Assembly (NCBI RefSeq): GCF_900110875.1
Contig: NZ_FOFM01000001.1
Span: 372,001-436,000, forward strand
DNA length: 64,000 bases
DNA from: Pseudovibrio axinellae
GTDB taxonomy: Bacteria; Pseudomonadota; Alphaproteobacteria; Rhizobiales; Stappiaceae
Direction: 5' to 3'
In this document: piece by piece, positions 11,443 to 27,421 of the stretch
Layout: each line of letters begins with the position of its first letter
Position numbering within the stretch: the first letter of the stretch is position 1
Position numbers and translations under genes: made by a program
The notes under the pieces: model-generated
The model's database searches: none
What the model was told of the DNA's origin: nothing
What the model saw: the letters and a program-made list of their open reading frames with translations, nothing else

Positions 11443-12128
11443 TAGGCCTTGTGATCCTTGTTGGCGCCATGGCGCTTGGCGTTTCAACTGGGTACCTTGG
11501 CACACCTGAATTTCTTGGCGAGCGGTTTCAAGAGGATGGGCCGCGGCTGGTATCACTTGCAGCCATTGGTATCGTGATTTTGATGGGCATGTTCGTGCGC
11601 CGCCCTGCTGCGCGGGAGGTTTTCGGCGCAGTGGCATTTTGGGGTGGTCTGGCTTTGCTGCTTATCATCGGTTACTCATACCGTTATGAGCTGATGAGCG
11701 TTCGCGACCGCGTTATGTCAGAGCTGTTCCCCGGTTCTGTTGTTCAGTCCGCAGATGGTGAGATGGTCGTTTCTCGCGGTGCACATAATCAGTTTTTCGT
11801 TGATGCACTGATCGATGGTGTCTCTGTCGACATGCTGGTGGATACAGGTGCCTCGCACATCACTCTCACGTATCGCGACGCTCGGCGGGTCGGTATCAAC
11901 GTCGATGAGCTTACGTTCAGCATGCCTGTTTCAACAGCAAACGGCATGGGATTTGTGGCGCGTGTGCGCTTGCAGGATATGCAGATTGGCGACTGGCACT
12001 TGCAGGAGGTCCCTGTCTTCGTCGCCCAGCAAGAAATGCTTTCCACCAGCCTTTTGGGTATGAGTGCGCTTAGCACCTTTGCCAGTTGGCGCATGGAAGG
12101 GAACCAGTTGATATTAAAGGCCCGATGA
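11430..12128 (+). CDS. Membrane-anchored retropepsin-like aspartic protease (TIGR02281 type)
   Basis: A 232-residue protein with three hydrophobic segments in the first 85 residues, followed by a single-domain clan AA aspartic protease. The catalytic motif is DTGAS with Asp138, and the flap/second-half landmarks are a hydrophobic VARVRLQDMQIG stretch and the terminal LLGMSALS segment. Such domains must dimerise to form the active site. TIGR02281-type proteins are widespread in alphaproteobacteria; their substrates are not established. It overlaps the DUF1289 gene and ends before a terminator shared with the convergent transporter gene. Confidence 0.9.
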   Translation: MRWMIGLVILVGAMALGVSTGYLGTPEFLGERFQEDGPRLVSLAAIGIVILMGMFVRRPAAREVFGAVAFWGGLALLLIIGYSYRYELMSVRDRVMSELFPGSVVQSADGEMVVSRGAHNQFFVDALIDGVSVDMLVDTGASHITLTYRDARRVGINVDELTFSMPVSTANGMGFVARVRLQDMQIGDWHLQEVPVFVAQQEMLSTSLLGMSALSTFASWRMEGNQLILKAR

Positions 12129-12208
12129 TCGTTTCTTTAGATCCGTCACCGCTGTGCAGCTTTTCTCGTGCAAGCGCTGTGCTTAAGGTTTGTAGCCGGC
12201 CTCCAAAA

Positions 12209-12245
12209 CAAAAAGCCGCTGGCGATGATGTCAGCAGCTTTTTTG
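12209..12245. terminator. Rho-independent terminator between convergent genes
   Basis: Stem AAAAAGCCGCTG pairs with CAGCAGCTTTTTT with one C-A mismatch around a 10-base loop. T-run follows on the plus strand and an A-run precedes, so it may act in both directions. Confidence 0.75.
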
Positions 12246-12264
12246 TTATTCACGCACTCAACGG

Positions 12265-13086
12265 CTACAGCACAGAGACCAAGAACCTTGCGCTGACGAT
12301 CAGCAGGAAAATTCCGAATGTGATCTCCAGCTTTCGTTTTGGCAATGTGTGAGCGGCGCGAACGCCCAGCGGTGCGACCAGAACTGAAACCGGGATAATC
12401 AAAACTACGGCCAGCACGTTGACGTAGCCTACAGAAAATGGCGGCAGGTTTGGAGCTCCCCACCCTGCGGCCATCATGCCAAAAATTGCCGGAATTGAGA
12501 TTAAAACTCCAACGCCGGAAGAGGTTGCGACAGCTTGATGGATTGGGCGGCCAAACAAGGTCATGAATGTGTTGTTCATGACGCCTCCGCCAATCCCCAT
12601 CAGGGTGGAGAAAAACCCAATCAACACGCCAATTAGCCCACGAACTGGATTCTTCGGGATCTCCTGACCCAGTTTCCAGCTTTCGCGGTTAAACAACATG
12701 CGCATGGCCACCACAAAAGCGATGACCGCAAAAATTCCCTTGAGCGTTTGACCTGAAACCATAGCTGCAACAAACGAGGCCGCCAGAACACCAAGCGGTA
12801 TTGGAATGACCCAGCTTTTAAGCAAGGCAAGGTCAACCGCCCCTTTCTTTTTATGAGCAAAGAAAGAGCGCAGGGATGTTGGCACGATAATCCCAAGTGA
12901 CGTGGCCACTGCAACGTGCATCACGACTTGTGGGTCTACGCCGATTTCACTTAAAACACTGACAAGGATCGGGACAAGAATTGCTCCCCCTCCGATGCCG
13001 AACAAGCCAGCGAGAAATCCGGCCAGAGCGCCGGAGGCAACCAATGCAGCTGCGAAGCCGAACATCGGCACCCACATAATGTCCAA
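12265..13086 (-). CDS. TauE/SafE family membrane transporter
   Basis: A 273-residue integral membrane protein of the TauE/SafE (DUF81) family, usually linked to export of sulfite, sulfoacetate or other organic anions. The internal duplication is visible: GLFGIGGGAILVP near residue 28 and LMGIGGGVMNN near residue 162 are the two repeat motifs, each followed by an ATS segment (VATSLG, VATSSG). About eight membrane helices are expected. It lies 40 bp downstream of dusA on the same strand and may be co-transcribed. No sulfur-metabolism gene is adjacent, so the substrate is open. Confidence 0.92.
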   Translation of the reverse strand: MDIMWVPMFGFAAALVASGALAGFLAGLFGIGGGAILVPILVSVLSEIGVDPQVVMHVAVATSLGIIVPTSLRSFFAHKKKGAVDLALLKSWVIPIPLGVLAASFVAAMVSGQTLKGIFAVIAFVVAMRMLFNRESWKLGQEIPKNPVRGLIGVLIGFFSTLMGIGGGVMNNTFMTLFGRPIHQAVATSSGVGVLISIPAIFGMMAAGWGAPNLPPFSVGYVNVLAVVLIIPVSVLVAPLGVRAAHTLPKRKLEITFGIFLLIVSARFLVSVL

Positions 13087-13126
13087 GCTAAATCCCTTTC
13101 AATGTCCTGATCGTTTTAATGGCGCT

Positions 13127-14146
13127 TTAAGCTGCCCGGATCGCATTTTGATGATGTGCAACAGCGGCCAATGCGTCATCCAAAACCGTGATGTCTGCAC
13201 CAGGTTTATTGGCTTCAACCGTCATAATACGGCGGAAATGACGTGCGCCTGGAACACCTTGATAGGTGCCCAAGATATGACGGGTAATCGACGCCAGCTT
13301 TGTGCCCGCATTCAACTCGTTTTCAATGTAGCCACGGTAAGCGTCCATTGCTTCTACAGAGGTAAGTGCGCTCTTGTCTTCGCCATAAACAACACGGTCT
13401 ATATGAGCGAGCAGCATCGGGTTTTGATAGGCGGCACGGCCCATCATAACACCATCAAGTTTCTCCAGATGAGCGGAGGTTTCTTCCAGGGTCGCAACAC
13501 CACCATTAAGCCCGATGAAAACATCTGGCAGGCGCTGTTTAAGGCGATAGACCAAGTCATACTCCAGAGGCGGTACATCCCGGTTTTCTTTTGGGCTCAG
13601 CCCTTTAAGCCATGCTTTGCGTGCATGCACCCAAATAGCATCACTGCCCGCTGCGATGACTTTGTCAGCCAGCGTGTTCAGCGCTTCTTCCGGCTCCTGA
13701 TCGTCAACACCAATGCGGCACTTTGTGGTGACAGGAATGGAGACGGCATCTTTCAGGGCTGCAATGCACTGCGCCACAAGGTCTGGCTCCAACATAAGGC
13801 ATGCGCCAAATTTGCCTGATTGCACGCGGTCAGAGGGGCAACCAACATTGAGGTTAACCTCATGATAGCCCCAGTCTTCGATCATCTTTGCGCACTCTGC
13901 CAAGGCTTTGGGGTCAGAGCCACCAAGCTGACAGGCCGTCGGCTGCTCGCCTTCAGAAAAGCGCAGATGACGTTCCTTGTCACCATGGATCAGCGCACCT
14001 GTGGTGATCATCTCGGTGTAAAGGAGAGCGTTTTTTGATAGAACACGATGAAATGCACGGCAATGTCTATCAGTCCAATCAAGCATCGGCGCAACGGCGA
14101 AGACAGACTGGTTGATATCATAGAGTTTTTTTGTTTTTTCAGTCAT
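13127..14146 (-). CDS. dusA: tRNA-dihydrouridine(20/20a) synthase DusA
   Basis: FMN-dependent enzyme reducing uridine 20/20a in the tRNA D-loop. At 339 residues it shows the FMN-site start VAPMLDWTDRHCR (residues 18-30), the NVGCPSDRV motif with catalytic Cys103, KCRIG near 162, VHARKAWLKGLSPKEN, and a late GRAAYQNP. The DusA subgroup (rather than DusB/C) is supported by MLDWTDRHCR and the WLKGLSPKENR segment. The 5' end of dusA is a known insertion target for a family of island/phage integrases, and a decayed integrase gene lies 105 bp upstream, reading away from dusA. Confidence 0.97.
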   Translation of the reverse strand: MTEKTKKLYDINQSVFAVAPMLDWTDRHCRAFHRVLSKNALLYTEMITTGALIHGDKERHLRFSEGEQPTACQLGGSDPKALAECAKMIEDWGYHEVNLNVGCPSDRVQSGKFGACLMLEPDLVAQCIAALKDAVSIPVTTKCRIGVDDQEPEEALNTLADKVIAAGSDAIWVHARKAWLKGLSPKENRDVPPLEYDLVYRLKQRLPDVFIGLNGGVATLEETSAHLEKLDGVMMGRAAYQNPMLLAHIDRVVYGEDKSALTSVEAMDAYRGYIENELNAGTKLASITRHILGTYQGVPGARHFRRIMTVEANKPGADITVLDDALAAVAHHQNAIRAA

Positions 14147-14251
14147 TTAGCATTCCAAAGACCCTGCTCAATTCATAGCGATTGGCACCATAGTCTCAAA
14201 ATAACGTAATATGGCAGTGTCTCATATTGCGCTCAAATAAGGACCAAGTGA

Positions 14252-14567
14252 AAGGGCACAATCACTCACAGACAGAGTAAGATATTTTCCCTCAAACGGG
14301 CGGCCCAAACCGTGCTCAACAAACGAGAGATCAATCTATCGCTTCCAAGTGGACTAGAACGCACCCCAAAACCCGCAAAGGCTTTAAGTGAGGTAATAAA
14401 GCGATCGCTTAAAGATCACAACAAAAACATTGGTCGCGGCAAAGTCACAAGTTTGGGAAACTATTCGTGACCGCTATGCGATTGCAGACTTGGATTGTGC
14501 CGAGATCCGCTCTGAGCACATCGTTGAGTTCGCAACACAGTTCTCACAGAACGTTCCACCTCAAGGG
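14252..14567 (+). pseudogene. Tyrosine recombinase/integrase remnant (N-terminal and core-binding regions only)
   Basis: Translated in two plus frames, this stretch resembles the N-terminal half of an alphaproteobacterial tyrosine integrase. It begins KGTITHRQ, where intact relatives typically begin MGTIT; the codon in the start position is AAG. A segment appears deleted before FSLKRAAQTVLNKRE (arm-binding domain end), then comes ALSEVIKRSLKDHNKNIGRGK. A frameshift near 14440 moves to KSQVWETIRDRYAIADLDC, then EIRSEHIVEFATQFSQNVPPQ (core-binding domain). Homology stops at about 14567 and the whole catalytic domain (R-H-R-Y) is missing. Lesions: lost start, internal deletion, frameshift, 3' truncation. 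It lies head-to-head with dusA. Family call is from remembered sequence patterns. Confidence 0.75.
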
Positions 14568-15013
14568 CAATTCAGAGATTTACGAAAATAGACAACTCTA
14601 TCAGTCTCATCAAAACCCCAGCTCGCATGGGCCATGTGGGATTGTTTATTATCTAAGCTTGCGTCTGAGCAAAGCTCTTGAAAACCGCTCTGGATCAGAT
14701 CATCAGTAATTTGCTGAATTATAGATCGCCCGATACCTTGCCGCAGCTGAATAGGATGAACCCATATTCCCTCCAAAAAAGGGACGGGTTGAGCAGTACA
14801 ACCATTAGCATATTCGCGTATGCAAATTTCGGCAAAGCCAACAGGCTCGCCACTTGGTAACAATGCAATGTAACCCCACCTCTTCTTGGCTCTAAGCATC
14901 TTACTTATATCCGTAAGGTGTTCATCAACTGAGAGGCTATCCCAAAGCTTAAAGCGCATTTCTGCCCAGACCGTAATATCCGCTTCGCGCATTTTCCGAA
15001 TAGTAACTGGCAT
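14561..15013 (-). CDS. GNAT acetyltransferase, aminoglycoside 6'-N-acetyltransferase AAC(6')-I-like
   Basis: A 150-residue GNAT protein that resembles the short AAC(6')-I enzymes of the Acinetobacter/Serratia type. The pattern includes an N-terminal IRKMREADITVWAEMR-like start and PVPFLEGIWVHPIQLRQGIG (acetyl-CoA loop with QGIG). The C-terminal string is CSDASLDNKQSH, then GFDETDRVVYFRK. These C-terminal residues (SDA..DN..SH and ET..VVYF) are highly characteristic of that group. It would acetylate the 6'-amine of aminoglycosides or a native amine; activity is unproven. It ends against the truncated integrase remnant and shares no operon. Chromosomal intrinsic gene or acquired cargo are both possible. 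Confidence 0.83.
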   Translation of the reverse strand: MPVTIRKMREADITVWAEMRFKLWDSLSVDEHLTDISKMLRAKKRWGYIALLPSGEPVGFAEICIREYANGCTAQPVPFLEGIWVHPIQLRQGIGRSIIQQITDDLIQSGFQELCSDASLDNKQSHMAHASWGFDETDRVVYFRKSLNCP

Positions 15014-15273
15014 AAATTCCCCTCGGATCAGATATTTAAACGCAATAGTGATGTATCAAGATTTTGCTGAACTGTTTTGCATATGTCCAGCTTTCGGGGA
15101 GTATTGGCTGCGTTATCCAATTTAGCCATAACATCTTTGGAGAGCCAATTTTGACGATCCTACTAAGGCGCTAGGACGTTGACTAAGCCAAGGGGGACAA
15201 GCTGCAAAAACGGCTTTTTTGCTAGTGTCTAGCAGGCTGGGCAAGTTGGGTATGTAGACGCAGGCTTTTGAGA

Positions 15274-18000
15274 TTATCTCGCCTTCAAGTTCAAACGCAC
15301 TTGTTTTTCGATTTCAACAATTGCGAAGAGTGTTAGTCCGGTTCCGATAATGAGCAGACCGTCGAAGAATGGAATTGCTCGCGTTTCAAAAATTCCTTGC
15401 AGAAGAGGAATATAGGTTATGGCAAATTGGGCCAATGTAACCGTGATCACCACAATCCAAACAATCCTGGTGCCTCGGATTGCCTCCCAAGTAAGGGAGG
15501 TGCTGTATATATTGCGAATGAAGAACAGGTGGAATATTTCCATCACGACGAGCGTGTTGAGCGCAATTGTTCGGGCAAGTTCTACTGAGTATCCACGTTC
15601 GATTGCGTAACTGTAGATCCCAAAGACACCGCCAAGGAATAGAGCAGCTACCAGAACAATATGCCAGACCAACTCGCCCGTCAGTAATGGCTCTTCCTGT
15701 GGGCGCGGCGCGCGGCGCATCGTGTTTTTCTCAGTTGGCTCAAAAGCAAGAGCGATCCCCAAAGTTACTGCTGTAATCAGATTGACCCAAAGAATTTGAA
15801 CCGGCGTAATTGGTAGGGTCATACCAAACAGCATGGCCACTAGTATGGTACTCGCCTCACCTGCATTGGTCGGCAAAGTCCAGCTAATAACTTTCTTGAT
15901 ATTATCATAGACGGTGCGGCCTTCCTGGACAGCAGCCGCAATTGAGGCAAAATTATCGTCAGCCAAAACCAGTTCTGCCGCTTCCTTAGCCGCTTCGCTT
16001 CCTTTTTTGCCCATGGCTATACCGGCATCGGCGCGTTTTAATGCGGGGGCGTCGTTTACACCATCTCCGGTCATTGCCACTGTCATGCCATGGGATTGCA
16101 ACGCCATTACCAAACGCAGCTTGTGTTCAGGGCTGGTGCGCGCAAAAATATCGCAATCAAGCACCTCCTCCTTAAGCTTTGCATCATCAAAGGTATCTAG
16201 GTCATTACCTGTGAGCACCTTGTTGGGGTTTTTCAGACCTATCTGTTTGGCTATCGCGGCAGCGGTTGCTCCATGATCGCCAGTGATCATTTTCACACGG
16301 ATACCAGCATCATGACATTCACCAATCGCTGTGATTGCCTCTGCCCTTGGCGGATCAATCAGCCCGACCATGCCCAGCAGTGTGCAACCACCCTCCACGT
16401 CCGCATGATTTAATTGCATGTCTTCATTTGGGATGTCTTTTACCGCAAATGCCAAGACACGCTGACCAAGTGAAGCTATGCCGTCTGCTGTCTTGCGCCA
16501 GTAGGCCTCCTCAAGGCGCTCAGATCCGCCATCCGCCTTACGTTGCTTGTTACACATGGCTAAAACGCGCTCTGGCGCTCCTTTGATAAACACAGAGGCG
16601 CGATTGTCTGGGCTATGGTTTAGTGTCGCCATAAAGCGGTGTTTTGCATCAAACGGGATCGTATCTACGCGACGCCAGGTGTTCTGCTCACCTTGGGCAC
16701 CCACGCCGCATTTTGCTGCAAATGCAAGCAGCGCGCCTTCCATCGGGTCACCTTCAACCACCCAAGCCCCTTCGCGCTCTCGAAGCTCTGCGTCATTACA
16801 TAAAACCGCAGCTCGGGCTATTTCTCCCAAAGCAACATGCTCAAAAGGTGAGACGACCTTATCATTGAGTTTGAGCAAACCTTTCGGCTGATACCCCGCC
16901 CCTTCCAATGTAAACACACTTTGGTGAACCAGCGCTGAGGTCACCATCATCTCGTTAAGGGTCAGCGTGCCCGTTTTATCGGTGCAAATTACGGATACTG
17001 ATCCGAGTGTTTCGATGGCCGGAAGCCGCCTAACAATAGCGTTTTGACTGGCCATTGCTTTGACGCCAATCGCCAAAGTGATGGTTAATATGGCGGGTAA
17101 ACCTTCAGGGATTGCAGCCACCGACAACCCAACGACGGCCATAAACAGCTCTGTGAAGTCGTAGTGATCAACAAAGTATCCGAATAAAAGCAACAGGATA
17201 GCTATGGCAAGGATGAGGACGGTCAACCATTTGGCAAACACATTCATCTGTTTTACGAGGGGCGTCGTAAGCGTCTCCACCTTTGAGATCAGACCGCTAA
17301 TGCGCCCAATCTCTGTAGAGGCCCCTGTCGTTACGACAACGCCTTTGCCTTGGCCAGCTGTTACCAATGTACCGGAAAAACCAAGACAGGAGCGCTCACC
17401 TAGCGGCGCATCCATAGCCACACAGGAGCAGTCCTTGTCCACCGGAACGGATTCACCTGTCAAAATAGCCTCTTGTATTGAGAGGCCGTGTGCAGAAAGC
17501 AGCCGGATATCAGCTGGAACTTTGTCCCCCGCCTCCAGCAGCACAATGTCACCAGGAACGAGCATTTCACCGGCGATGCTCTGACGCATTCCATCACGCA
17601 GGACCGAGGCGTGGGGCGCGAGCAGCTCATGGATTGCATCCATTGCTTTTTCTGCATTTCCTTCCTGAATAAAGCCGATAATGGCATTGGTAAACACCAC
17701 GGCCAAAATGACGGAGGTGTCGATCCAGTGATTAAGAAACGCTGTAATAAGAGCGGAGCCAAGCAGCACATATATCAATATGTTATTGAAATGTAGCAGG
17801 AAACGATGGATTGCGCTGCGCTTTTCTTGCTTTGGCATACGGTTAAGTCCGTGCGTTAACACACGAGACTCGGCTTCTTTTTGTGTCAGACCTGCGGGAT
17901 TGGTGCCTAGCTTTTTGAGCACCTGTTCAATCGAACTTGTGTGCCATAGGATTTGTTTTTCTTCGGCACCTGTGTCTTGCTTCACTGCTAATTTCTGCAT
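15274..18000 (-). CDS. P2-type cation-transporting ATPase (PMA1/Ca2+-ATPase-like)
   Basis: A 908-residue P-type ATPase with complete catalytic apparatus. The actuator motif TGES is at 181-184, PEGLP in membrane helix 4 at 298-302, the phosphorylation motif DKTGT at 341-345, KGAPE in the nucleotide domain, and MTGDGVNDAPALKRADAGIAMG in the hinge. About ten membrane helices. Helix 4 PEGLP and helix 5 NAGEAS resemble Ca2+ pumps. Helix 6 reads WVNLITAVTLGIALAFEP, where SERCA has Asp after Thr, so the ion may be Na+ or another cation, as in cyanobacterial PMA1-type pumps. No regulator is adjacent. Upstream lies non-coding DNA, then small unknown genes. Confidence 0.92.
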   Translation of the reverse strand: MQKLAVKQDTGAEEKQILWHTSSIEQVLKKLGTNPAGLTQKEAESRVLTHGLNRMPKQEKRSAIHRFLLHFNNILIYVLLGSALITAFLNHWIDTSVILAVVFTNAIIGFIQEGNAEKAMDAIHELLAPHASVLRDGMRQSIAGEMLVPGDIVLLEAGDKVPADIRLLSAHGLSIQEAILTGESVPVDKDCSCVAMDAPLGERSCLGFSGTLVTAGQGKGVVVTTGASTEIGRISGLISKVETLTTPLVKQMNVFAKWLTVLILAIAILLLLFGYFVDHYDFTELFMAVVGLSVAAIPEGLPAILTITLAIGVKAMASQNAIVRRLPAIETLGSVSVICTDKTGTLTLNEMMVTSALVHQSVFTLEGAGYQPKGLLKLNDKVVSPFEHVALGEIARAAVLCNDAELREREGAWVVEGDPMEGALLAFAAKCGVGAQGEQNTWRRVDTIPFDAKHRFMATLNHSPDNRASVFIKGAPERVLAMCNKQRKADGGSERLEEAYWRKTADGIASLGQRVLAFAVKDIPNEDMQLNHADVEGGCTLLGMVGLIDPPRAEAITAIGECHDAGIRVKMITGDHGATAAAIAKQIGLKNPNKVLTGNDLDTFDDAKLKEEVLDCDIFARTSPEHKLRLVMALQSHGMTVAMTGDGVNDAPALKRADAGIAMGKKGSEAAKEAAELVLADDNFASIAAAVQEGRTVYDNIKKVISWTLPTNAGEASTILVAMLFGMTLPITPVQILWVNLITAVTLGIALAFEPTEKNTMRRAPRPQEEPLLTGELVWHIVLVAALFLGGVFGIYSYAIERGYSVELARTIALNTLVVMEIFHLFFIRNIYSTSLTWEAIRGTRIVWIVVITVTLAQFAITYIPLLQGIFETRAIPFFDGLLIIGTGLTLFAIVEIEKQVRLNLKAR

Positions 18001-18187
18001 TGGCCTACTCGCTCACCCAAGTTATGGCGCCGAAAACTCTGCGGTCATAGGTGTTAGAAAACGAAGCAACTATGGGTGAGACTATTTTACATAACATCTC
18101 AACAATGCAACTTGATCCACATCAATTCAAGCTTGTTGGCGGTATCTCGTGGGAATACAGTTCAGGAGGTTCGTGCGAGCGTGAATT

Positions 18188-18484
18188 TTATTTACTGAGC
18201 GAGAATTCGATAAATGCCGTGAAATATGCGTAGCCCAGAATGCCGAAGGGTACTAGAAACGCGTGCCAAAGCCCGATCTTTGATAGCCTTGTGTGTATCC
18301 GTTTTATCGGGTCATCTTTTTTTCGAAAAAATGCAGGAAGCAAATGGATCACGTTAAGGTTTGGGCAAAGCCCACGTTCGCGAAGTTGGCTATATTCATT
18401 CTGTTTTCTAATTCGATGAAATGAATAGATGCCTCCCGCAAAAATAACAATAATACCAATGTTACGCAGAGCATCGAAAATCAA
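18188..18484 (-). CDS. Small hypothetical membrane protein
   Basis: A 98-residue protein starting at TTG 18484, supported by AAAAGGTGA eight bases upstream. Two hydrophobic segments are visible: residues 7-22 (IGIIVIFAGGIYSF) and about 72-92 (WHAFLVPFGILGYAYFTAF), separated by a basic cytoplasmic-looking loop with several Arg/Lys pairs. I do not recognise a family. It stands alone, convergent or divergent with uncharacterised neighbours in the accessory block. The ribosome site and composition favour a real gene, but nothing indicates its function. Confidence 0.55.
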   Translation of the reverse strand: MIFDALRNIGIIVIFAGGIYSFHRIRKQNEYSQLRERGLCPNLNVIHLLPAFFRKKDDPIKRIHTRLSKIGLWHAFLVPFGILGYAYFTAFIEFSLSK

Positions 18485-18810
18485 GGCTTCACCTTTTCAG
18501 TTGTTGTTTTAACAGCCGCATCTTCTCCCAACGACGCACCCGCACTTAAGCGATCAGGGTTTAGCCGTCTTGTTTTAGCAGCGAAACCAACCAGGAGTTA
18601 CTTCCTATTGAAATGTACAATTAAGGAGACTGATCAGCATTTGCGTTTGATCGGAACTTTATTGGTAAGCGCACTACCGAATTGTGTGCGGCGGAATTGA
18701 TGCTCGGCAATACGCATTTGTCTGTGGGAAGTGCAGATTGTCGCATGGGGAAACTATCTATTACTGATAGTAAGCAGAGACGAAAGATAATACCAAATAA
18801 GGACAATTTT

Positions 18811-19116
18811 ATGAAAATACTTTCTGCTTCGTTTGCGCTGCTTTTGGCAACAAGTTCCTTCGCGATTGCTAAGGACCAGGTGAACGTTGATGAAATGAAA
18901 GAGCTACTCATCACTGAACTGCGCGCCAATAACTGCGAAATCAAGTTTCCAGACTTGATGAAGATTTTGCAAAGCAAGGGCTTCACACCTGCCAAGAATG
19001 AAGCGACAGGCAAAAGCGACTTTGACATTGTTCAAGATGCAATCACGCAGCTAGACGATGAAAACAAAGCTGATACACAAGCCCGTACTTTGATATTGAC
19101 TGATGGTTCTTGCTAA
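18811..19116 (+). CDS. Small secreted/periplasmic hypothetical protein
   Basis: A 101-residue protein starting at ATG 18811 with AAGGAC upstream. Residues 1-20 form a clear signal peptide (MKILSASFALLLATSSFAIA). The mature part is mostly helical and charged, with two cysteines (NNC near residue 47 and the penultimate-region Cys at the C terminus) that could form a disulfide. The open frame extends upstream without a ribosome site, so the shorter start is preferred. Family not recognised; it resembles small alphaproteobacterial periplasmic proteins with a helix-loop-helix body. A strong terminator follows. Confidence 0.75.
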   Translation: MKILSASFALLLATSSFAIAKDQVNVDEMKELLITELRANNCEIKFPDLMKILQSKGFTPAKNEATGKSDFDIVQDAITQLDDENKADTQARTLILTDGSC

Positions 19117-19147
19117 TCAGGCAAGTTTATTTTTATAGTATTCGTCT

Positions 19148-19179
19148 AAAACCGGCTTTCTCCCAAAAGCCGGTTTTTT
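19148..19179 (+). terminator. Rho-independent terminator after the small secreted protein
   Basis: Stem AAAACCGGCTTT(C) pairs with AAAGCCGGTTTT around a short loop and ends in six T residues, 32 bases after the stop codon. Confidence 0.88.
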
Positions 19180-19393
19180 GCTCTCCAACACTGTGAGAGC
19201 TTACGTGGCAATGACCTCATCAGCACGATAACTCCTCCGTTGATAAAGGAATCCGGCAGTAGGCTCATGTTGTCAGCTTCACGTTTGACCTCCTCAAATT
19301 CGGAACTGATATATGTGACATTGACAGTTCTTCTGAAATTGAAACGTAAAGCGAGATCGAAAAACAGCTGAAACAACACTTCGACAGTTAAGA

Positions 19394-20080
19394 ATGGAAG
19401 TAATCTATCACAAAGCCCAGGAATTGCTTGACCCGATCAGAATACATTCGCGTGAGTGTTTTGCTCCCTCCAGCTTTGAAAGAACTGGTGCGGACGAAAG
19501 CGCGTGAGATCGCAACAGCCGCTGGGCGGCGGATCAACATTACTGTCACTGAAACGTCCAACAGTCAGCGCAAGCTGGGTTCTATAAATGCGTACGACAT
19601 CCGCAAACACGGTGACTTAATCCCCGAGCTTAATGGTTCCCTTCAACTGTGTCGCAGCCTGGAAGATACTACAGGCCATTATGTTTCTGATTGTGACTGG
19701 GAAAATGAGCGCATGACGATGATGCGCCAGACCAAATCCGGTGACACCCACGGTTGGCACTGGGGAGACTATTAATATGCGCTGGTCTTCATCATTGATC
19801 ATCCGCCAATTGATCACGGTGGTATGTTGCAGTGCGTTCCACATACAACATGGGACAGCAGAACCCCATTATTTTCCATACTCTAACTGAAAGTCCAATC
19901 GACACCTATTTTCACCAGGGCGGCGATATTTATTTCTTCAGCACCGACACCACGCTACATCGCACCTACCCTTTAGAAAAAGAAGGCACCCGGATCATAT
20001 TGAACTTCACCTATGATGGCCCGGATGGTGTCGAACGCTCGCGTACGCACGAAACTCAATCTGTTGTTTACGATTGGTGA
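19394..20080 (+). pseudogene. Decayed Fe(II)/2-oxoglutarate amino-acid radical halogenase (BesD/HalD type)
   Basis: Reading through three lesions gives a near full-length member (about 228 residues) of the BesD/HalD family, iron/2-oxoglutarate enzymes that chlorinate free amino acids. ATG 19394 starts MEVIYHKAQELLDPIR, a frameshift near 19440-19460 leads into VLLPPALKELVR, and the next landmark is SGDTHGWHWGDY. An in-frame TAA (19773-19775) follows, the same frame continues [11 protein letters not shown] to TTWDSRTP, and a second frameshift near 19865 leads to STDTTLHR and ILNFTYDG. The H-x-x-H-x-G-D string, the distal His 67 residues after the proximal His, and N-F-T 15 residues later match BesD residues H134/H137/G139/D140, H204 and N219/T221 as I recall them. 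Gly instead of Asp in HxG is the halogenase hallmark. Sequencing error at three sites is possible but less likely than decay. Confidence 0.8.
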
Positions 20081-20605
20081 TCCTTACCTTTGCGTGGTCA
20101 GCAACCGGCATCGACACACAGATGCGACGGTTGTTTGATTTACTTTCAAAGGTGAATGACAGAAATAGGTCTCAAGGAATATACTGCAGCTGGAGTCACC
20201 TGTGGCAGAATGAAAGCCGCAATGACTTCAGTTTGCACCAATGCACCCCATTTCCCATCTCATCCTATCTGCTCATAACGGCTTAGCGACAGGTATTGCA
20301 CGCAATAACAAATTCGTGTCGGTGCGTGAGGCGTTAAGCTTGTCAAGCTTGTCATTGGGTGCATGCGCATATCTGCGGTGATGTGGCCGTTTTTTTCGAA
20401 GCACTTCAAACTATGGCACAAACACTCGTTTTGTTAATCTTGCGCTTGTTGCATTGCGTGCTCACAGGAGTTTCACTGCGATAAAATCAGAGTGATAAAT
20501 GTGAACGTCATCCCAATGAATATATTGGTTATTTTAAACTCCATGAAACATGAGAGATACATTCTTTAGGCAGAGGTCGAACGGTCATGTGTGAGGAGTG
20601 TATCG
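20081..20605. other. Non-coding stretch, no convincing gene
   Basis: About 525 bp after the halogenase remnant. Only short open frames are present (the longest 70 codons), without ribosome sites or recognisable families. A 9-base direct repeat AAGCTTGTC occurs twice in tandem near 20337-20354. The last 100 bases are AT-rich and probably carry the promoter of the following gene. I see nothing else. Confidence 0.6.
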
Positions 20606-22075
20606 ATGCCGCTTGGAAAGCAAAACCAAACTACAGAAGCTGGAACACAAGAAGAGCTGAGCTGGGCAAAACGCGTTTTTCAAGAGCTTAAAATCACCTA
20701 TCCTGACACGGTAGATCAAGGCCAACAGGCTGAAGCTCAAATGCTGAAGCAAAGTGGGTTAAACACCACCGATAGCAAGGCAGTTGAAGCTTCGCTGGCT
20801 CAGGTCGCCTCTGAAAGTCCGGCTGCTCACAAAACTGCGGATAGCCTGATCAAAAGTATCGTCACGCTGTTTACACGTCTGGAAGGTGACAACGAGCTGA
20901 AAGGTACGTTGGATGCTATGCAGGCCTATACCGGTGACAACCCGAAATACGGCGTTGTAGGTCAGCTGGGAGCTGGTGGCTTTACTAAGATAGTCGACGG
21001 CGCCAAAAAGGGTAAGGACACAGATGTGACAGTGCGCGAAAAAGGCACCGCCTATTTCGATCTGTCGAATTCTCCTGCCTTTAGAAAGGCGCTTGAAAAA
21101 ATCTATCATTCACCGGAGTTGCAGGAGAAGGTGAAGGATATCATCGACATCGACTACCTGCATAGCTTCAAGTTTGGCCCGCCGCGCGGTGCGCAACCTG
21201 GCAGCCAGGCTCCCGAAGAGCTTAAGCTTTACACCTACAGAAACGAAAACAAACAGAACGCCTCTGAGAACCCTGAGCTCTATGGCGATGTGCCGGGCAG
21301 TGACGACGACACAGTGCCGGAGAATGACGCACTGGCCGGACAAAGCCTGACGGCAAACCAGCGCAAGTACCGCACCCGCAAGAAAGGGGGCGATGGAGCA
21401 TGGGCTACAGAGGCGGACCTTGAGGCCAATAAGCGCTTAACTGAACGCGAAGCAGCTTTTGCCCGAACGAACCCACGCAACAGGGCCGATAGAGAAGACT
21501 ACCAGTTTAAAGACAAAGGCCCGGTCAAATCAGGTGAGTTGCCTTCCGAAAAGGTGATCGTGGAACATCAGCCCGGTTTTTCGGTCTGGGATGTGAAAGA
21601 TGACACTGGTTTTGCCAAGGATGCAGAAATGCACAATAAGCCCACGGTGGCCGGTCCCTCAGGAACCACTGACCGCTTCATCACTGGCATTCGGTTGCTG
21701 GGTAAAGGCGTGATTAAAGAGTTGGGGCTGGAGGGAAACAATACCGAGGCGCAAGTTAAGGAGCTAGGGCGCTGGCTTGCAACCGGATATCTGGTTGGCG
21801 ATGAGCACCACTCCGCTGTCGAAGTTAACCTTGGCGCTGCCAACCATGGCCTGAAACCACAATGGGGTTCGGATCTGTACACAGAGCCATTCTCTGAGCC
21901 AATCAAAGGGAAAGGCTTTGAGATTTCTAGTGAAACTGTGGTTGGACAGCTTGAGAAGAAACTTGAAACGGCAAAAGAAGATGCCGTGAACAAAGAGTCC
22001 TATCGCTTTGATCTGGAAGGCGGTTCTAAGGGCTCGGTTACACCTGATGGCCGCGTTAAGAAGCCTAGCAATTAG
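20606..22075 (+). CDS. Hypothetical cysteine-free hydrophilic protein, possible effector-like
   Basis: A 489-residue protein starting at ATG 20606, chosen over an in-frame GTG because GAGGAG lies eight bases upstream. It has no signal peptide, no membrane segment and not a single cysteine. It is rich in Lys, Glu, Asp, Gly and Asn. The N-terminal 110 residues look helical. A Gly-rich stretch (VVGQLGAGGF) lies near 120, a long acidic/polar linker near 220-330, and a more ordered C-terminal part includes ITGIRLLGKG and DEHHSAVEVNLGAANHGL, the only stretch that looks like a conserved active or binding site. The family is not recognised. It lies in an accessory block; a role as a secreted or phage/interbacterial cargo protein is speculation. 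Confidence 0.75.
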   Translation: MPLGKQNQTTEAGTQEELSWAKRVFQELKITYPDTVDQGQQAEAQMLKQSGLNTTDSKAVEASLAQVASESPAAHKTADSLIKSIVTLFTRLEGDNELKGTLDAMQAYTGDNPKYGVVGQLGAGGFTKIVDGAKKGKDTDVTVREKGTAYFDLSNSPAFRKALEKIYHSPELQEKVKDIIDIDYLHSFKFGPPRGAQPGSQAPEELKLYTYRNENKQNASENPELYGDVPGSDDDTVPENDALAGQSLTANQRKYRTRKKGGDGAWATEADLEANKRLTEREAAFARTNPRNRADREDYQFKDKGPVKSGELPSEKVIVEHQPGFSVWDVKDDTGFAKDAEMHNKPTVAGPSGTTDRFITGIRLLGKGVIKELGLEGNNTEAQVKELGRWLATGYLVGDEHHSAVEVNLGAANHGLKPQWGSDLYTEPFSEPIKGKGFEISSETVVGQLEKKLETAKEDAVNKESYRFDLEGGSKGSVTPDGRVKKPSN

Positions 22076-22273
22076 GAGATTTGCTTCTGCTTCTCTCTCA
22101 GCTTGCATTTTTTTGATGTTGGGAGAGAAGTCTTTTAGAGCGGCCGCAGCATCTTCCTCTGTATGCTGGCAGCTTTGATGATCCTTTGGGCATTCCTTAA
22201 CACGCGTTAGGAAATTTTTAATGGAATCACACCATCATAAGAACATAGGAAGAACATCAGGTGTTTAATTACT

Positions 22274-22510
22274 ATGTCCAAAAAGTTTCAGTGGCGGCAG
22301 CGTTGGAAAAACGTCCCAGACCACAATGTGGGCACGGGCGTCCTTAGTACTGAGATGAGCATGCGCGTTCATCGCGAAAACGCGGAAGACACCCGTAAGC
22401 GATGGCGGTGGGAGCTGCACCATAATGGTGTCGTGTGCAAAGGCAATGTCAACGATAAGGTTGAAGCCATGCAAAAAGCGCAGGATGCCTATATCGCTTA
22501 CCTGCGCTGA
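22274..22510 (+). CDS. Small basic hypothetical protein
   Basis: A 78-residue tryptophan- and arginine-rich protein (FQWRQRWKN, TRKRWRWELHHNG) ending in a helix MQKAQDAYIAYLR. The ribosome site is weak. Composition and an amphipathic C-terminal helix suggest a real protein, and the WRWELHHNG string looks like a beta hairpin of the kind seen in small DNA/RNA-binding or phage-associated proteins. No family recognised. It is convergent with the EamA gene, 16 bp away. Moderate confidence that it is expressed; function unknown. Confidence 0.5.
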   Translation: MSKKFQWRQRWKNVPDHNVGTGVLSTEMSMRVHRENAEDTRKRWRWELHHNGVVCKGNVNDKVEAMQKAQDAYIAYLR

Positions 22511-22526
22511 TCTTATCCGTTAACAT

Positions 22527-23405
22527 TTAATTGGTTGCCGTTGCCCTTTTGGTTTGCTTGGCAGCCGTTGCTGTAGCAGGCGCTTTCAAAGCATAAACGA
22601 TACTGCCAAGCACGATGCAAATGCCTACCCACTGACGCCAGCCAAAGTCTTCTCCCACAAGCACCTGACCACACACGACGGCAGAGACCGGGTTGACCAG
22701 GGACAGAAAACCAATCGTAGTCGGGTTGAGCTGAACGATCCCTTTGAGCCAGTTGACCGAGGCCCAGCCCATTCCCACAATTCCGATCCAGAAGAACGCC
22801 AGCGCCATGCCCAGATCAGGTATCGGGGCCGCCCCTTCTAATATGAGGGCAATCGGCACGGCATAAAGCCCCCCAAGCGTGACATGCCACCCTGTATAGG
22901 TGACCATGCTTGCTTCTGGTTTGCCCCACTTATTGCTTAAATAGACACCGGTGAACGTGCTCAGGCACGCGACCATCGCCGCACCGATGCCAAGCCAGTC
23001 CACTTCCAGAGCGCCAAGCAGCAACAAGGCGACACCAAACAACCCAATAAACGAGGCGACCAGCTGGCGCGCAATGGGTTTCTTTCCATCCAGAACCCAG
23101 ATGTAGAAGATGACCTGTAAGGGCAGCGTCGCCATGATGGTTCCAGCCATGCCACTTGGAAGACGGAACGCGGCGATGAAAACGAAAAAGATCATAGACA
23201 GGTTGGTCAGCCCGATGATCATTGCACGCTGCATCCAGCGGGCCGAGAGCAAGCCGGGAGCAAAGGCAAGAAGCAACAGACCTGCTGGCAGCAAGCGGTA
23301 GACCACCATCCAAACAGGATCTTGCGCAGGCAATAGAAGGATCGTGATCGCATAGGTAGTGCCCCAGATTGCAGGGGTTAGCGCAGTGCGAAATTGAATG
23401 AGCAT
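22527..23405 (-). CDS. EamA/DMT family transporter
   Basis: A 292-residue drug/metabolite transporter with the expected ten membrane helices arranged as two EamA repeats (about residues 5-130 and 145-275). The first helix contains TPAIWGTTYAI, the typical AxxWGxxxx start, and the second repeat contains WGKPEASMVTYTGWHVTLG. Such proteins export amino acids, purines or drugs. The C-terminal tail is basic. It is divergent from a MarR regulator, with two copies of a 19-bp element between them, so expression is probably controlled by that regulator and induced by the exported compound. Substrate not predictable. Confidence 0.92.
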   Translation of the reverse strand: MLIQFRTALTPAIWGTTYAITILLLPAQDPVWMVVYRLLPAGLLLLAFAPGLLSARWMQRAMIIGLTNLSMIFFVFIAAFRLPSGMAGTIMATLPLQVIFYIWVLDGKKPIARQLVASFIGLFGVALLLLGALEVDWLGIGAAMVACLSTFTGVYLSNKWGKPEASMVTYTGWHVTLGGLYAVPIALILEGAAPIPDLGMALAFFWIGIVGMGWASVNWLKGIVQLNPTTIGFLSLVNPVSAVVCGQVLVGEDFGWRQWVGICIVLGSIVYALKAPATATAAKQTKRATATN

Positions 23406-23416
23406 TCACTTTGACC

Positions 23417-23493
23417 TTAAGTATCTTGAACTTAAACTAATATGTCATAGAATTAGAATATGGGTTAAGATTCGTCAAGTATCTTGAATTCAA
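23417..23493. promoter_or_regulatory. Two-copy operator in the EamA/MarR divergent promoter
   Basis: TTAAGTATCTTGAACTTAA (23417-23435) and TCAAGTATCTTGAATTCAA (23475-23493) are 58 bp apart, i.e. on nearly the same helix face. Each contains an internal palindrome (TTGAATTCAA in the second), the size expected for a MarR dimer site. One copy sits next to the EamA start, the other before the marR start. Confidence 0.75.
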
Positions 23494-23549
23494 GTAATAC
23501 CTCTGCGATATATATCCTATTGCTTTGAGGCGGATTATTGGGACTTAGA

Positions 23550-24050
23550 ATGACTGATCACGTTGCACGCGTTGTGCGCCAATGGACAAAAGAATTCCCT
23601 GAGGTTGATGCCAGCCCTATGTATGTGCTGGGCAGATTGTTGCGGATCAACACCCAAGTTACCAAAACCCTTGTCGCAAATTTTGCCAAGTTTGGCTTAG
23701 CAAACGGTGATTTTGACGTTCTTGCGACATTGCGACGAAGTGGTGAGCCATATGCGCTGCGCCCGACTGAGCTCTCCAAGTCCAGTATGCTGACTTCTGG
23801 TACCATGACGAGCCGGTTGGATAAGCTGGAAAAGCTTGGGCTGGTGTGCAGAAGCCCTAACCCTGAAGACCGACGTGCCCTCATGATCTACCTGACAGAC
23901 AAAGGGCGGAATTTGGTGGAGGAAGTTGCTAGGAAGCACTTTGAGCTGGAGGCGGAAGTGCTGGACACTCTGGACCCACAGGACCGACAGGCCCTTGAAG
24001 GCATACTGGAGCGGTGGTGCCACCGGCTGGAAGGCGATAGCCCTGCTTAA
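23550..24050 (+). CDS. MarR-family transcriptional regulator
   Basis: A 166-residue winged-helix regulator. The DNA-binding core is clear: FDVLATLRRSG, LRPTELSKSSMLTSGTMTSR (recognition helix), then the wing GLVCRSPNPEDRRALMIYLT with the family DRR motif. A C-terminal dimerisation helix follows. The start is ATG 23550; an in-frame TTG 12 bases upstream is less likely. MarR proteins repress neighbouring exporters and release DNA on binding phenolic or drug-like ligands. The divergent EamA gene and the paired operators make autoregulation plus control of EamA the natural reading. Confidence 0.93.
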   Translation: MTDHVARVVRQWTKEFPEVDASPMYVLGRLLRINTQVTKTLVANFAKFGLANGDFDVLATLRRSGEPYALRPTELSKSSMLTSGTMTSRLDKLEKLGLVCRSPNPEDRRALMIYLTDKGRNLVEEVARKHFELEAEVLDTLDPQDRQALEGILERWCHRLEGDSPA

Positions 24051-24182
24051 AGCGCCCTGGCCTGAACACGGCACCCTGCCCTACTACGCATTCCCCGTCT
24101 TGATCCTACGGATGTCTTGGCCCTGCCGCAGACGTGTTCACACAGCTGTTGGTTTTAGCAGGGCCTGATCGATCTAGGGGAT

Positions 24183-25181
24183 TTATTGATTGTCTGAAAG
24201 ACACTCATTGATGGTACGACCCATCTGTTTGAGCAGGTCTGTGTACAATTGCGGGCCAGCTTGCAGGTTGGAGCCCAATGGATCAAGCTCGGCTGTCTTT
24301 ACGCCGGTGCCTTCTTTGAGCACGGCCACCATTTTGGGGTTGAACTGAGCCTCTGAGAACACACAGCTTGCACCGAGGCTCTCCAGTTTCTGGCGCACCT
24401 GCGACAAGCGGCGGGCACCTGGCAGCACCTCTGGGCTGACCGTGACTGATCCAACTGCGTTTAAGTCATAGGCCTCTTCAAAATAACGGTAGGCATCATG
24501 AAACACCACGAAGGGTTTATCGTGGTTGTTTTCCAGCTCCACCTTCAACGACTTTGAGAGCTTATTGATCCGGGCTTCCTCCGCCTGTGCATTAGCAGCG
24601 TATTTGGCAGCATTTTCTGGGTCGGCTTTAGAAAGCGTTTTTGCAATCTCATCCAGCATGACAACCGCGTTTTGCGGGTCTAGCCAAAGATGCATATCAA
24701 ACGCCTGTGCGTCATGTTCCTCATCATCATGAGAGGCTGAAGCGTGCTCGTGCTCATCATGTGCTTCATGTTCGTCGTGGTGCTGATCACCACCGTGCTC
24801 ATGGGCTTCAAAATCACCCCCTTCACGAAAACTCAAAAGCTTTAGACCCTCAGCATCCTTCAGGCTAACGATCTTCGCAGATGGCGCCAGGTTCGAAAGC
24901 GGCGTTTCCAGAAAGTTCTCCATTCCCGGCCCAACCCAAAACACAACATCTGCATCTGCGATTTTGCGCGCTGTGGACGGTCTTAGAGTGAACGTATGCG
25001 GCGAGCCTGCCCCTTGCACCACAAGATCAGGTGTGCCGACACCTTCCATGACACTTGCCACCAGCGAGTGGATTGGCTTGATGGAGGCAACCACGTTGAC
25101 CTGCCCAAAAGCCAGAGAAGGGGCTGATAGAGTGGCGGTAAGAAGACCGAACATACCCATTGAGCGAACCAGATGCATCAT
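24183..25181 (-). CDS. znuA: Zinc ABC transporter substrate-binding protein ZnuA
   Basis: Periplasmic high-affinity zinc-binding protein of 332 residues. A signal peptide ends near residue 26 (LAFGQ). The first zinc-ligand region is SPHTFTLRPS (His in SPHT). A long His/Asp/Glu-rich loop lies at about 125-160 (HEHGGDQHHDEHEAHDEH and more), the hallmark of ZnuA over manganese relatives. DMHLWLDPQNA follows with the second His, then FHDAYRYFE with the third. Tandem Zur-like boxes lie directly upstream. The permease and ATPase genes znuBC are not in the window, so znuA is separately transcribed here, an arrangement seen in alphaproteobacteria where znuA and znuCB are apart. Confidence 0.95.
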   Translation of the reverse strand: MMHLVRSMGMFGLLTATLSAPSLAFGQVNVVASIKPIHSLVASVMEGVGTPDLVVQGAGSPHTFTLRPSTARKIADADVVFWVGPGMENFLETPLSNLAPSAKIVSLKDAEGLKLLSFREGGDFEAHEHGGDQHHDEHEAHDEHEHASASHDDEEHDAQAFDMHLWLDPQNAVVMLDEIAKTLSKADPENAAKYAANAQAEEARINKLSKSLKVELENNHDKPFVVFHDAYRYFEEAYDLNAVGSVTVSPEVLPGARRLSQVRQKLESLGASCVFSEAQFNPKMVAVLKEGTGVKTAELDPLGSNLQAGPQLYTDLLKQMGRTINECLSDNQ

Positions 25182-25196
25182 AAGCGCACAACCAAC

Positions 25197-25236
25197 TTTG
25201 TTATAGTATTACATTCAATTTTGTTAGTTTATAACA
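25197..25236. promoter_or_regulatory. Tandem Zur-like boxes upstream of znuA
   Basis: TGTTATAGTATTACA (25199-25213) and TGTTAGTTTATAACA (25222-25236) each differ by two positions from the palindromic pattern TGTTATAnTATAACA that alphaproteobacterial Zur recognises. They lie 18 and 41 bp before the znuA start codon, suitable for blocking its promoter when zinc is plentiful. Confidence 0.78.
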
Positions 25237-25423
25237 TCACGTATTTTAGAACACAACAGGCCTCTATGGGTTTTCAGCACAGGGAACACGTCCTTTCGGC
25301 ACCTCACCCCCTGCCTGACAGGCTCATCTAGCCCAACCTCTGTAAGTTGTTAGTTTTGCCTGATACCGCTGCCAAAATGACGAAACTCCTGTTATATTCA
25401 CGTAAAATCTATTGGGGTAAATT

Positions 25424-25903
25424 ATGGCCGAAGTTAAGGATGAGCTGGATCGAAAATTGATTGCGATCTTGCAAGGGAATGCCCGCGAACCGGTGTCCTC
25501 GATTGCGCGGCGACTGGATGTTGCACGCTCAACTGTTCAAGAGCGCATTGCCCGCCTTGAACGCAAAGGCATCATTATCGGCTATACGGCAATCCTAGGA
25601 GATCAGCAGGACGAAAAACGCGTGCAGGCGTTGGTGATGCTTTCTGTTGCACAGCAACGCTCCCGTGAGTTGATTACCCAGCTGGAATCTTACCCTGAGA
25701 TCCGTAGTTGCCTGACCATTTCCGGTGAGTTTGACCTCTGTCTGATTGTGGAACCAGACCGGCTGGAAGAGTTGGATGCTGTGCTTGATGAGATTGCTGC
25801 AATCCCGGGTGTTGAGCGAACACGTTCGTCTATTGTGCTGACGAAGAAGTTTGAGAGGCAACGGCCTTTCATGCCGCAAAATACCTATAGCATTGAGAAT
25901 TAG
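25424..25903 (+). CDS. Lrp/AsnC-family transcriptional regulator
   Basis: A 159-residue Lrp/AsnC regulator. The N-terminal helix-turn-helix is DRKLIAILQGNAREPVSSIARRLDVARSTVQERIARLERKG (in two parts, residues 8-48). The ligand-binding RAM domain has SGEFDLCLIVE near residue 100, equivalent to the conserved G-D/Y-L segment. It precedes a saccharopine-dehydrogenase-like gene by 243 bp, and the gap contains a perfect palindrome, so control of that gene and possible sensing of lysine or a related amino acid is a reasonable inference. A hairpin after the stop separates the two transcripts. Confidence 0.93.
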   Translation: MAEVKDELDRKLIAILQGNAREPVSSIARRLDVARSTVQERIARLERKGIIIGYTAILGDQQDEKRVQALVMLSVAQQRSRELITQLESYPEIRSCLTISGEFDLCLIVEPDRLEELDAVLDEIAAIPGVERTRSSIVLTKKFERQRPFMPQNTYSIEN

Positions 25904-25926
25904 CGATCCTTGTACCCTCGTGAATT

Positions 25927-25950
25927 CAACCCAGCCCAAAAGCTGGGTTG
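25927..25950 (+). terminator. Stem-loop after the Lrp gene
   Basis: Perfect 9-bp stem CAACCCAGC / GCTGGGTTG with a 6-base loop, 23 bases after the stop codon. There is no U-run, so termination efficiency is uncertain. Confidence 0.6.
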
Positions 25951-26020
25951 GTGGCTCAACGCACGAACAGCGCGACTCATGCCTCAAACGAAGCCACAAA
26001 CTGTCATTTTCACATTTTTA

Positions 26021-26035
26021 ATGTCAATGTGACAT
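26021..26035. promoter_or_regulatory. Palindromic operator candidate upstream of the saccharopine-dehydrogenase-like gene
   Basis: ATGTCAATGTGACAT is a perfect 6-bp inverted repeat with a 3-base centre, in AT-rich DNA 111 bp before the start at 26147. Related half-sites (CTGTCAT, GCCGTCA) flank it. It fits a multi-site Lrp/AsnC operator. Confidence 0.55.
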
Positions 26036-26146
26036 ATTTGCCGTCAAATATACGGATCAAAGCGTCATTTCGGCAAGTTGCCCCGTAAACTCCGGCAGTG
26101 TTTTCGCGTAGACTGGTAGTCAATCGAAACAAGCTTGGAGGAGCTT

Positions 26147-27268
26147 ATGAACCGACATCATGTCGCTGTTGTTGGAGCAGGTAAGATCGGTGGGATGATC
26201 GCTGCACTGTTGCAGGGGTCTGGAGATTACCAGATCAAAATACTGGACCAAAGTGTTGAAGCGCTGACGGAGTTGGACGTTGCGCATGTAACAACACAGG
26301 CACTGGATGTAAGCGATCCTGCAAAACTTACGCATGCCCTTAAAGAATGCGATGCTGTAATCTCTGCGGCTCCATTTTTCCTGACCCCAGTGATTGCGCA
26401 GGCCGCCAAAGATGCAGACTGCCACTACCTTGACTTGACCGAGGACGTGGACAGTACTGCCATGGTTGAGAAGATTGCTGAAGGTGCCAATAAAGCGTTT
26501 GCTCCGCAATGCGGTCTTGCCCCTGGTTTTGTTTCCATTGCCGGGCATGATCTTGCTCAGCAGTTTGAGAGCCTTGAAGACCTGCACTTGCGTGTTGGTG
26601 CCCTGCCCCGTTACCCAACAAACAAATTGAAATACAATCTTACTTGGTCCACGGACGGGTTGATCAATGAGTATTGTAATCCGTGCCTTGCCATTGAAGG
26701 CGGCGAACTCACCACTGTGCCAGCCCTTGCCGGTTTGCAAAATTTCTCCCTTGATGGTGTTGATTATGAAGCCTTTAACACCTCTGGTGGTTTGGGCTCA
26801 CTTTCAAAAACACTGCAAGGCAAAGTGCAGAGCCTGCGATACCTCTCCATTCGTTATCCCGGTCATCGGGATATTATGGAGCTGTTGCTCAAGGACCTAG
26901 GCTTTATCAATAAGCGAGAGCTGCTGAAAGAGGTGATGGAAGACGCTATTCCAGCCACCATGCAGGACCGGGTGCTGATCTTCATTACCGCAACGGGTAT
27001 GAAAGATGGTCGTTTTCAGCAAAGGTCCTACTCCCATGTTGTGAATGACCGGGAGATCATGGGCAAACACTGGAGCGGCATTCAGATTACAACAGCCGCC
27101 AGCATTTGCGCGACGCTGGACATGTTGATGACGAACAAGTTGCAGGCCAAAGGGTTTATCAAACAGGAAAGCATCAATTTGAAAGACTTCCTGTCCAACC
27201 GCTTTGGTCGCCTTTACAACAATGGTGGCTCAGACCACGAAACTCCGGGCCACCAACTGGCTGCCTGA
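26147..27268 (+). CDS. Saccharopine dehydrogenase NADP-binding-domain family protein
   Basis: A 373-residue oxidoreductase of the saccharopine dehydrogenase/lysine-ketoglutarate reductase fold. The Rossmann motif GAGKIGG is at residues 9-15, followed by the family segment AVISAAPFFLTPVIAQAAKD and a Gly-Leu-Ala-Pro-Gly substrate loop (CGLAPGFVSIAG). The catalytic domain runs from about 130 onward, with C-terminal ITTAASICATLD. ATG 26147 is chosen because GGAGGAG lies immediately upstream. Family members act on saccharopine, lysine, or carboxynorspermidine. The adjacent Lrp regulator and palindrome suggest amino-acid-dependent control. Exact substrate is not decided by sequence. Confidence 0.88.
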   Translation: MNRHHVAVVGAGKIGGMIAALLQGSGDYQIKILDQSVEALTELDVAHVTTQALDVSDPAKLTHALKECDAVISAAPFFLTPVIAQAAKDADCHYLDLTEDVDSTAMVEKIAEGANKAFAPQCGLAPGFVSIAGHDLAQQFESLEDLHLRVGALPRYPTNKLKYNLTWSTDGLINEYCNPCLAIEGGELTTVPALAGLQNFSLDGVDYEAFNTSGGLGSLSKTLQGKVQSLRYLSIRYPGHRDIMELLLKDLGFINKRELLKEVMEDAIPATMQDRVLIFITATGMKDGRFQQRSYSHVVNDREIMGKHWSGIQITTAASICATLDMLMTNKLQAKGFIKQESINLKDFLSNRFGRLYNNGGSDHETPGHQLAA

Positions 27269-27285
27269 GGGTCAACGCATAATGG

Positions 27286-27308
27286 AGCGCAGTCTTAAAG
27301 ACTGCGCT
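27286..27308 (+). terminator. Stem-loop terminator after the saccharopine-dehydrogenase-like gene
   Basis: A 10-bp stem AGCGCAGTCT / AGACTGCGCT with a 3-base loop, 17 bases after the stop; only a short T-run follows. Confidence 0.7.
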
Positions 27309-27421
27309 TTCAGCTTGCACCTAAACAGCAAGAAATGGGTTGCCTGCCCCCTTGCGGCTCTGGGCTATTTCAAGTGTACTGGAAAGCACGCTGTAATTTG
27401 AAGGAATGGGGAGCTGTGAAA

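Follow-up and report, generated by a model that had tools for sequence, protein, structure and literature searches.

The BesD family of Fe(II)- and 2-oxoglutarate (2OG)-dependent enzymes comprises halogenases such as BesD, HalB and HalD together with homologous hydroxylases. According to PMC8407142, Ala or Gly usually replaces the carboxylate ligand in the halogenases, and enzymes of the BesD family take free Lys, Orn or Leu/Ile/norleucine as substrates. PMC13244439, whose residue numbers run three higher than the BesD numbers used below, gives H140 and H207 as the iron-binding His residues, describes the lysine amino group as held by E123, D143 and D239 and the carboxylate by R77, H137 and W241, and reports that D142G, N149I and V223N shifted a hydroxylase homologue towards chlorination. 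Here we describe a relic of this family in Pseudovibrio axinellae, at ~19350..20080 on the plus strand of a 64,000-nucleotide stretch of contig NZ_FOFM01000001.1 (positions 372,001 to 436,000; this whole stretch is the window below, and coordinates count from its first base). The relic is very likely a pseudogene of a BesD-family halogenase for a free amino acid, with chlorination as the activity to be expected from its family.

Results

Two open pieces cover most of the relic. Piece 1 (19428..19775, plus strand, 115 aa) carries the proximal metal site GDTHGWHWGDY and stops at the TAA at 19773; piece 2 (19832..20080, plus strand, 82 aa) is homologous from ~19859 and carries the distal His and the N-F-T motif. 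When the pieces were searched separately, the family PF23169 (HalD) was the sole Pfam match at E<=1 for both piece 1 (19428-19772; 99 bits, E 3.4e-28) and piece 2 (19832-20077; 74 bits, E 1.5e-20), and with a curated cut-off of 26 bits both pieces score as members. Against NF042920, the NCBIfam BesD profile (L-lysine 4-chlorinase), they reached 61 and 66 bits, both far below the equivalog cut-off of 450, as is the 233 bits of an intact relative (L024, see below); the NCBIfam scan of piece 1 gave in addition a chance match to ClpX (E 0.13). A sequence search of the PDB at E<=1 returned eight distinct sequences for each piece, all of them BesD-type halogenases or hydroxylase homologues: HalB, HalD, BesD, four of the 9oe series (three lysine halogenases and one lysine hydroxylase) and the BesD-like lysine hydroxylase 7jsd. 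HalB, HalD and BesD ranked best and both hydroxylase sequences came at the bottom. A preliminary description of this DNA, made from the letters alone, had joined three frames into a near full-length Fe/2OG enzyme, and the matches of both pieces to the HalD family, far above chance, bear this out.

The active site was compared at 15 BesD positions in an alignment of BesD (locus L104, pSCATT) and 17 other homologues, with the BesD numbering anchored on H137/G139 of the preliminary description. The window has the BesD residue at nine of the 15 positions (R74, E120, H134, H137, G139, D140, H204, N219, T221), including both His iron ligands; the six changed positions are 146 (Val for Ile), 151, 236, 237, 238 and 239. 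The iron, chloride and substrate site at 19749..19769 (plus strand) holds H134 (19749), H137 (19758), G139 (19764) and D140 (19767), and the distal iron ligand H204 (19958) is followed by N219 (20003) and T221 (20009) within 19958..20011 (plus strand). The H-x-x-H-x-G-D string noticed earlier is unique, no second H..H.GD turning up in any of the six frames of the window; the distal His, placed 67 residues on in the preliminary description, lies 200 nt past the proximal one, which is 66.7 codons (67 minus a one-base slip), and N219/T221 fall 15 codons beyond it, as had been stated for N-F-T. H137, G139 and H204 thus make up a halogenase-type iron site, i.e., two His, with the metal-binding Asp replaced by Gly (HxG), at the spacing of the family. 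The Asp of the HxD type, as in the lysine hydroxylase 7jsd, is absent at position 139, where both the window and its three closest relatives have Gly. Renumbering of the contacts D239 and W241 of PMC13244439 shows that the BesD substrate contacts D236 and W238 are not conserved in the window; they are also absent in its kin and in the HalB/HalD-like rows displayed. Assuming the same offset, the places of D142G, N149I and V223N are Gly, Val and Asn in the window and Gly, Ile and Asn in its kin, and only the Gly is telling, since the other two places do not split HxG from HxD rows in the alignment.

The closest relatives are the intact halogenase genes of three Rhodobacteraceae, Thalassobius sp. 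I31.1 (L024) and two metagenome-assembled genomes (L025, L026), with 69-70% identity to the window and DNA homology that spans ~19352-20082. Thalassobius is a marine genus. In a tree of the family the window lies inside a 52-row HxG group that contains no HxD row (SH-aLRT, a likelihood-ratio branch support, of 89, not starred), and in a second tree of 16 HxG and 5 HxD rows, split with support 95/93, it falls on the HxG side. This position and the top structure matches uphold the assignment to the BesD/HalD-type halogenases made in the preliminary description, and neither of the outcomes it had named as contrary, best matches of the HxD type or no similarity to 2OG enzymes, occurred. The window copy sits on a long end branch, two family-invariant residues are altered in it, and synonymous sites are saturated with respect to all three kin; nesting with L025 compared with a position as sister to L024-L026 gave a p-AU (approximately unbiased test) of 0.07.

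A functional member of the family needs an open reading frame, and the window copy has none. The frame 19350+3k is in register with intact L024-L026 from ~19350 to 19853 with zero indels, and along it (plus strand) lie in-frame TAA codons at 19389..19391, 19401..19403 and 19773..19775, the last directly after HWGDY, as well as one at 19347..19349 in the poorly conserved N-terminus. A one-base frame slip follows at ~19854..19858, between HTTW and the QNPII of the second piece. The TAA at 19773-19775 had been recognized before, and a slip placed near 19865 is real and lies a few bases upstream of there. A further frameshift proposed at 19440-19460 is absent, the alignment to kin being in register there and through the TAA codons at 19389 and 19401; the ATG at 19394, taken as the start, lies in another, non-homologous frame, and the real extent is ~19350-20080. 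Recoding of TAA instead of decay was ruled out because a frame slip is present too.

Relatives were sought in other genomes and in mobile elements. Matches to the HalD profile above its cut-off occur in 15 of 87 genomes of the window's family: three are strong (258-292 bits; G020, G104 and G102), 11 are weak (<=60 bits), and the window's own genome matches as two pieces. The strong matches (L004, L005 and L006) are of the HxD type with the motif HWDDY, and those of G020 and G104 (L004, L005) share 24-26% identity with the window. Within the genus, the profile matches in 0 of 15 further genomes. Intact copies had been suggested for sister strains; there are none in these 15 genomes, and the intact genes were instead found in the three Rhodobacteraceae. 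With a model built on these three kin (E<=1e-20), six of 385 sampled genomes of the class match, own genome included, of which the other five are HxD (three) or without the motif under the pattern used (two). No relative came up when viral contigs were scanned once with two patterns that single out the close kin, none of the phage records encodes one, and megablast with window 15000-27500 found no plasmid record that carries the region; seven plasmid records bear distant homologues, two of these being the BesD gene of S. cattleya. As separate observations, a Coleofasciculaceae homologue (L053, 8001-8327) has Gly at the place of the distal His (TTLGST) in a short frame and is perhaps another decayed copy, while in L005 and L006 (G104, G102) the HxD homologue adjoins, by eye, class-III aminotransferase-like and fatty-acid-desaturase-like genes, which is perhaps an amino-acid hydroxylase cluster.

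The intact kin share a gene cluster (L024 3715-10837, L025 4992-10730, L026 864-8451) with 66-78% DNA identity over matching blocks and the order LysR, a methyltransferase MT3 (in two), EamA, LuxR-type regulator, halogenase, a 163-aa open reading frame (ORF; in two), MT1 and MT2. MT1 is akin to sugar N,N-dimethyltransferases. MT2 is akin to CmoA (structure match 4gek; TIGR00740 140 bits, below the cut-off of 193); what we take to be Arg199 of CmoA aligns with a Ser in MT2, with an Arg adjacent, and MT2 is at most a candidate synthase of carboxy-S-adenosylmethionine (carboxy-SAM). At E<=1e-6, MT1, MT2, EamA, LuxR and LysR turned up in none of the 78 other halogenase loci searched, some of which have short flanks. 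Transposase-type genes stand on either side of the L025 cluster and suggest mobility. In L024, the stretch 4682-5290 holds a 77-residue match (77% identity) near 5067 to an iron-type ABC ATPase that is a whole gene in L026, and may represent partial decay within the cluster. Searching 19 cluster proteins (three of them halogenases) with tblastn against the 64 kb and against 19100-20600 detected only the halogenase at the relic; the remaining hits in the 64 kb are LysR or ABC proteins at other positions, or chance matches. In the window's own genome as a whole, where EamA, LuxR and MT3 were not sought, MT1 has one distant match (30% over residues 45-133, E 3.3e-6), and no CmoA-like MT2 was found in 16 genomes of the genus by a search without a positive control. 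The literature within our coverage, which takes in little of the subscription literature, contained nothing on this halogenase clade or its cluster.

On its left the relic is preceded by dusA, a tRNA-dihydrouridine synthase gene and target site of islands (13127..14146, minus strand; PF01207, 281.5 bits), whose start is overlapped by a broken integrase remnant (14131..14564, plus strand) that matches residues 1-20 and 53-169 of the 416 of the integrase of G002. G002, a genome of the same genus in which 11504-14554 is conserved, has an open tyrosine integrase (PF00589) right at the dusA 5' end. An integrase at this position is characteristic of dusA islands and is represented in the window by a fragment. 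Such islands are also marked by a direct repeat, at their far edge, of the 5' end of dusA: an ~80 bp copy sits upstream of the right flank in each of G002, G004 and G009, and no second copy was found within the window. A small protein that by eye looks exported (18682..19116, plus strand) is encoded by DNA common to G002 and G010; 18686-19204 occurs in G002 on the side of the insert that faces dusA, ~54 kb from its right-flank copy, and 18711-19140 in G010. On the right, genus-conserved backbone resumes at 20479..24033 with a 494-aa ORF, an EamA transporter and a MarR regulator, parts of it having 70-83% DNA identity in several same-genus genomes; the 494-aa frame (20591-22075), likewise conserved as DNA in several of these, has no Pfam or NCBIfam match at E<=1. 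When 17000-24000 was searched in 16 genomes of the genus, own included, with at most 18 candidates scored per genome, 14 of the 16 matched, and 19205-20478 had no match in the 15 others, of which G012 and G013 are uninformative because no part of 17000-24000 matched in either. The accessory region named in the preliminary description is backed by the dusA hot spot, and the halogenase gene probably belongs to the cargo of an island that has decayed, since it sits between dusA with its broken integrase and the backbone that resumes near 20479.

Discussion

The enzyme family is already known and the decay is ordinary, so that apart from its identity the relic is an ordinary pseudogene. How the gene came to be here allows one alternative, namely that it was present in the ancestor of the genus and lost by the other species without any island. 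The large, partly constrained divergence from kin and the genus-conserved backbone on the right would fit such a vertical relic, but with no HalD-profile match in any of the 15 other genomes, no counterpart there of 19205-20478 (G012 and G013 saying little) and an integrase remnant at dusA, we regard it as unlikely. Still less credit goes to a halogenase gene that is really intact and only seems broken through errors of sequencing or assembly. The assembly is a draft of 93 contigs, and the iron ligands and most compared active-site residues are kept; against this stand three to four stops and a slip within 0.7 kb while nearby frames of 339, 908, 494, 292 and 579 aa are open, the long end branch and the two altered family-invariant residues. 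That a HxD amino-acid hydroxylase of the same superfamily decayed here, and not a halogenase, is most improbable: one Pfam family holds both types, the fold fails to tell them apart and, among intact genes, the best matches within the window's own family of genomes are HxD, but the window and each of its three close kin have a Gly codon at the ligand position, L004 and L005 have only 24-26% identity to the window, and the relic groups within HxG. Production of the two pieces as a split enzyme can be all but dismissed: the pieces are long and open and have start codons, but the stop and the slip lie at different places, ~28 residues are in neither piece and the aligned N-terminal part holds stops.

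For the decayed halogenase, then, the family suggests that the ancestral enzyme would have held Fe(II) on two His with chloride at the site that Gly leaves vacant, formed a ferryl-chloride from 2OG and O2, and passed the Cl to an unactivated carbon. Lys or Orn, as basic amino acids, would be its most likely substrates, with the chances on the substrate about even. To judge from its neighbourhood, the gene may have arrived by horizontal transfer into the dusA hot spot, either without its partner genes or losing them there, with decay coming afterwards. An ancestor may in fact have made a chlorinated amino acid, as the preliminary description suggested. A wider reading is rather doubtful and is offered tentatively, i.e., that the relic is the trace of a mobile alphaproteobacterial chlorination pathway, since lost in this host, that yielded a so far unreported, exported N-alkylated chloro-amino acid; besides a BesD-family halogenase and an EamA exporter, the pathway would have comprised two enzymes, one resembling N-methyltransferases and one resembling CmoA (carboxy-SAM synthase), together with LysR/LuxR regulators. 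Because the three intact members stand in a conserved regulator/exporter/methyltransferase cluster, the relic points to a pathway that can be tested. With them, the small group of halogenases acting on free amino acids gains a probable branch in the alphaproteobacteria. The window shows the loss of such a gene, and the cluster of its kin is a better lead than the relic itself.

Compared with the dusA-specific islands described in PMC4482086, the locus is alike in its integrase at the dusA 5' end and its variable cargo, and differs in that the integrase is fragmentary and the right att repeat was not found. HalD (7u6h), which gives the Pfam family its name, has 35% identity over piece 1 (37% for the Pseudomonas row L068) and sits on another branch of the tree. 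HalB (7u6i, 7u6j), a lysine halogenase of the BesD family, is 32% identical over piece 1 and 37-38% identical to the intact kin, and the window copy is broken. BesD (6nie, L104), the L-lysine 4-chlorinase of Streptomyces cattleya, has 36.9% identity and shares with the window the nine active-site residues listed above, but not D236 and W238, and the window stays below the NCBIfam cut-off for BesD. The scanned neighbours of the kin are regulators, a transporter and methyltransferases, the partner genes of the bes pathway not having been sought by name. The halogenases of L024-L026 differ from the window copy in being intact and in standing within a conserved cluster that was not found in the window, but at 69-70% identity they are the nearest to it of all.
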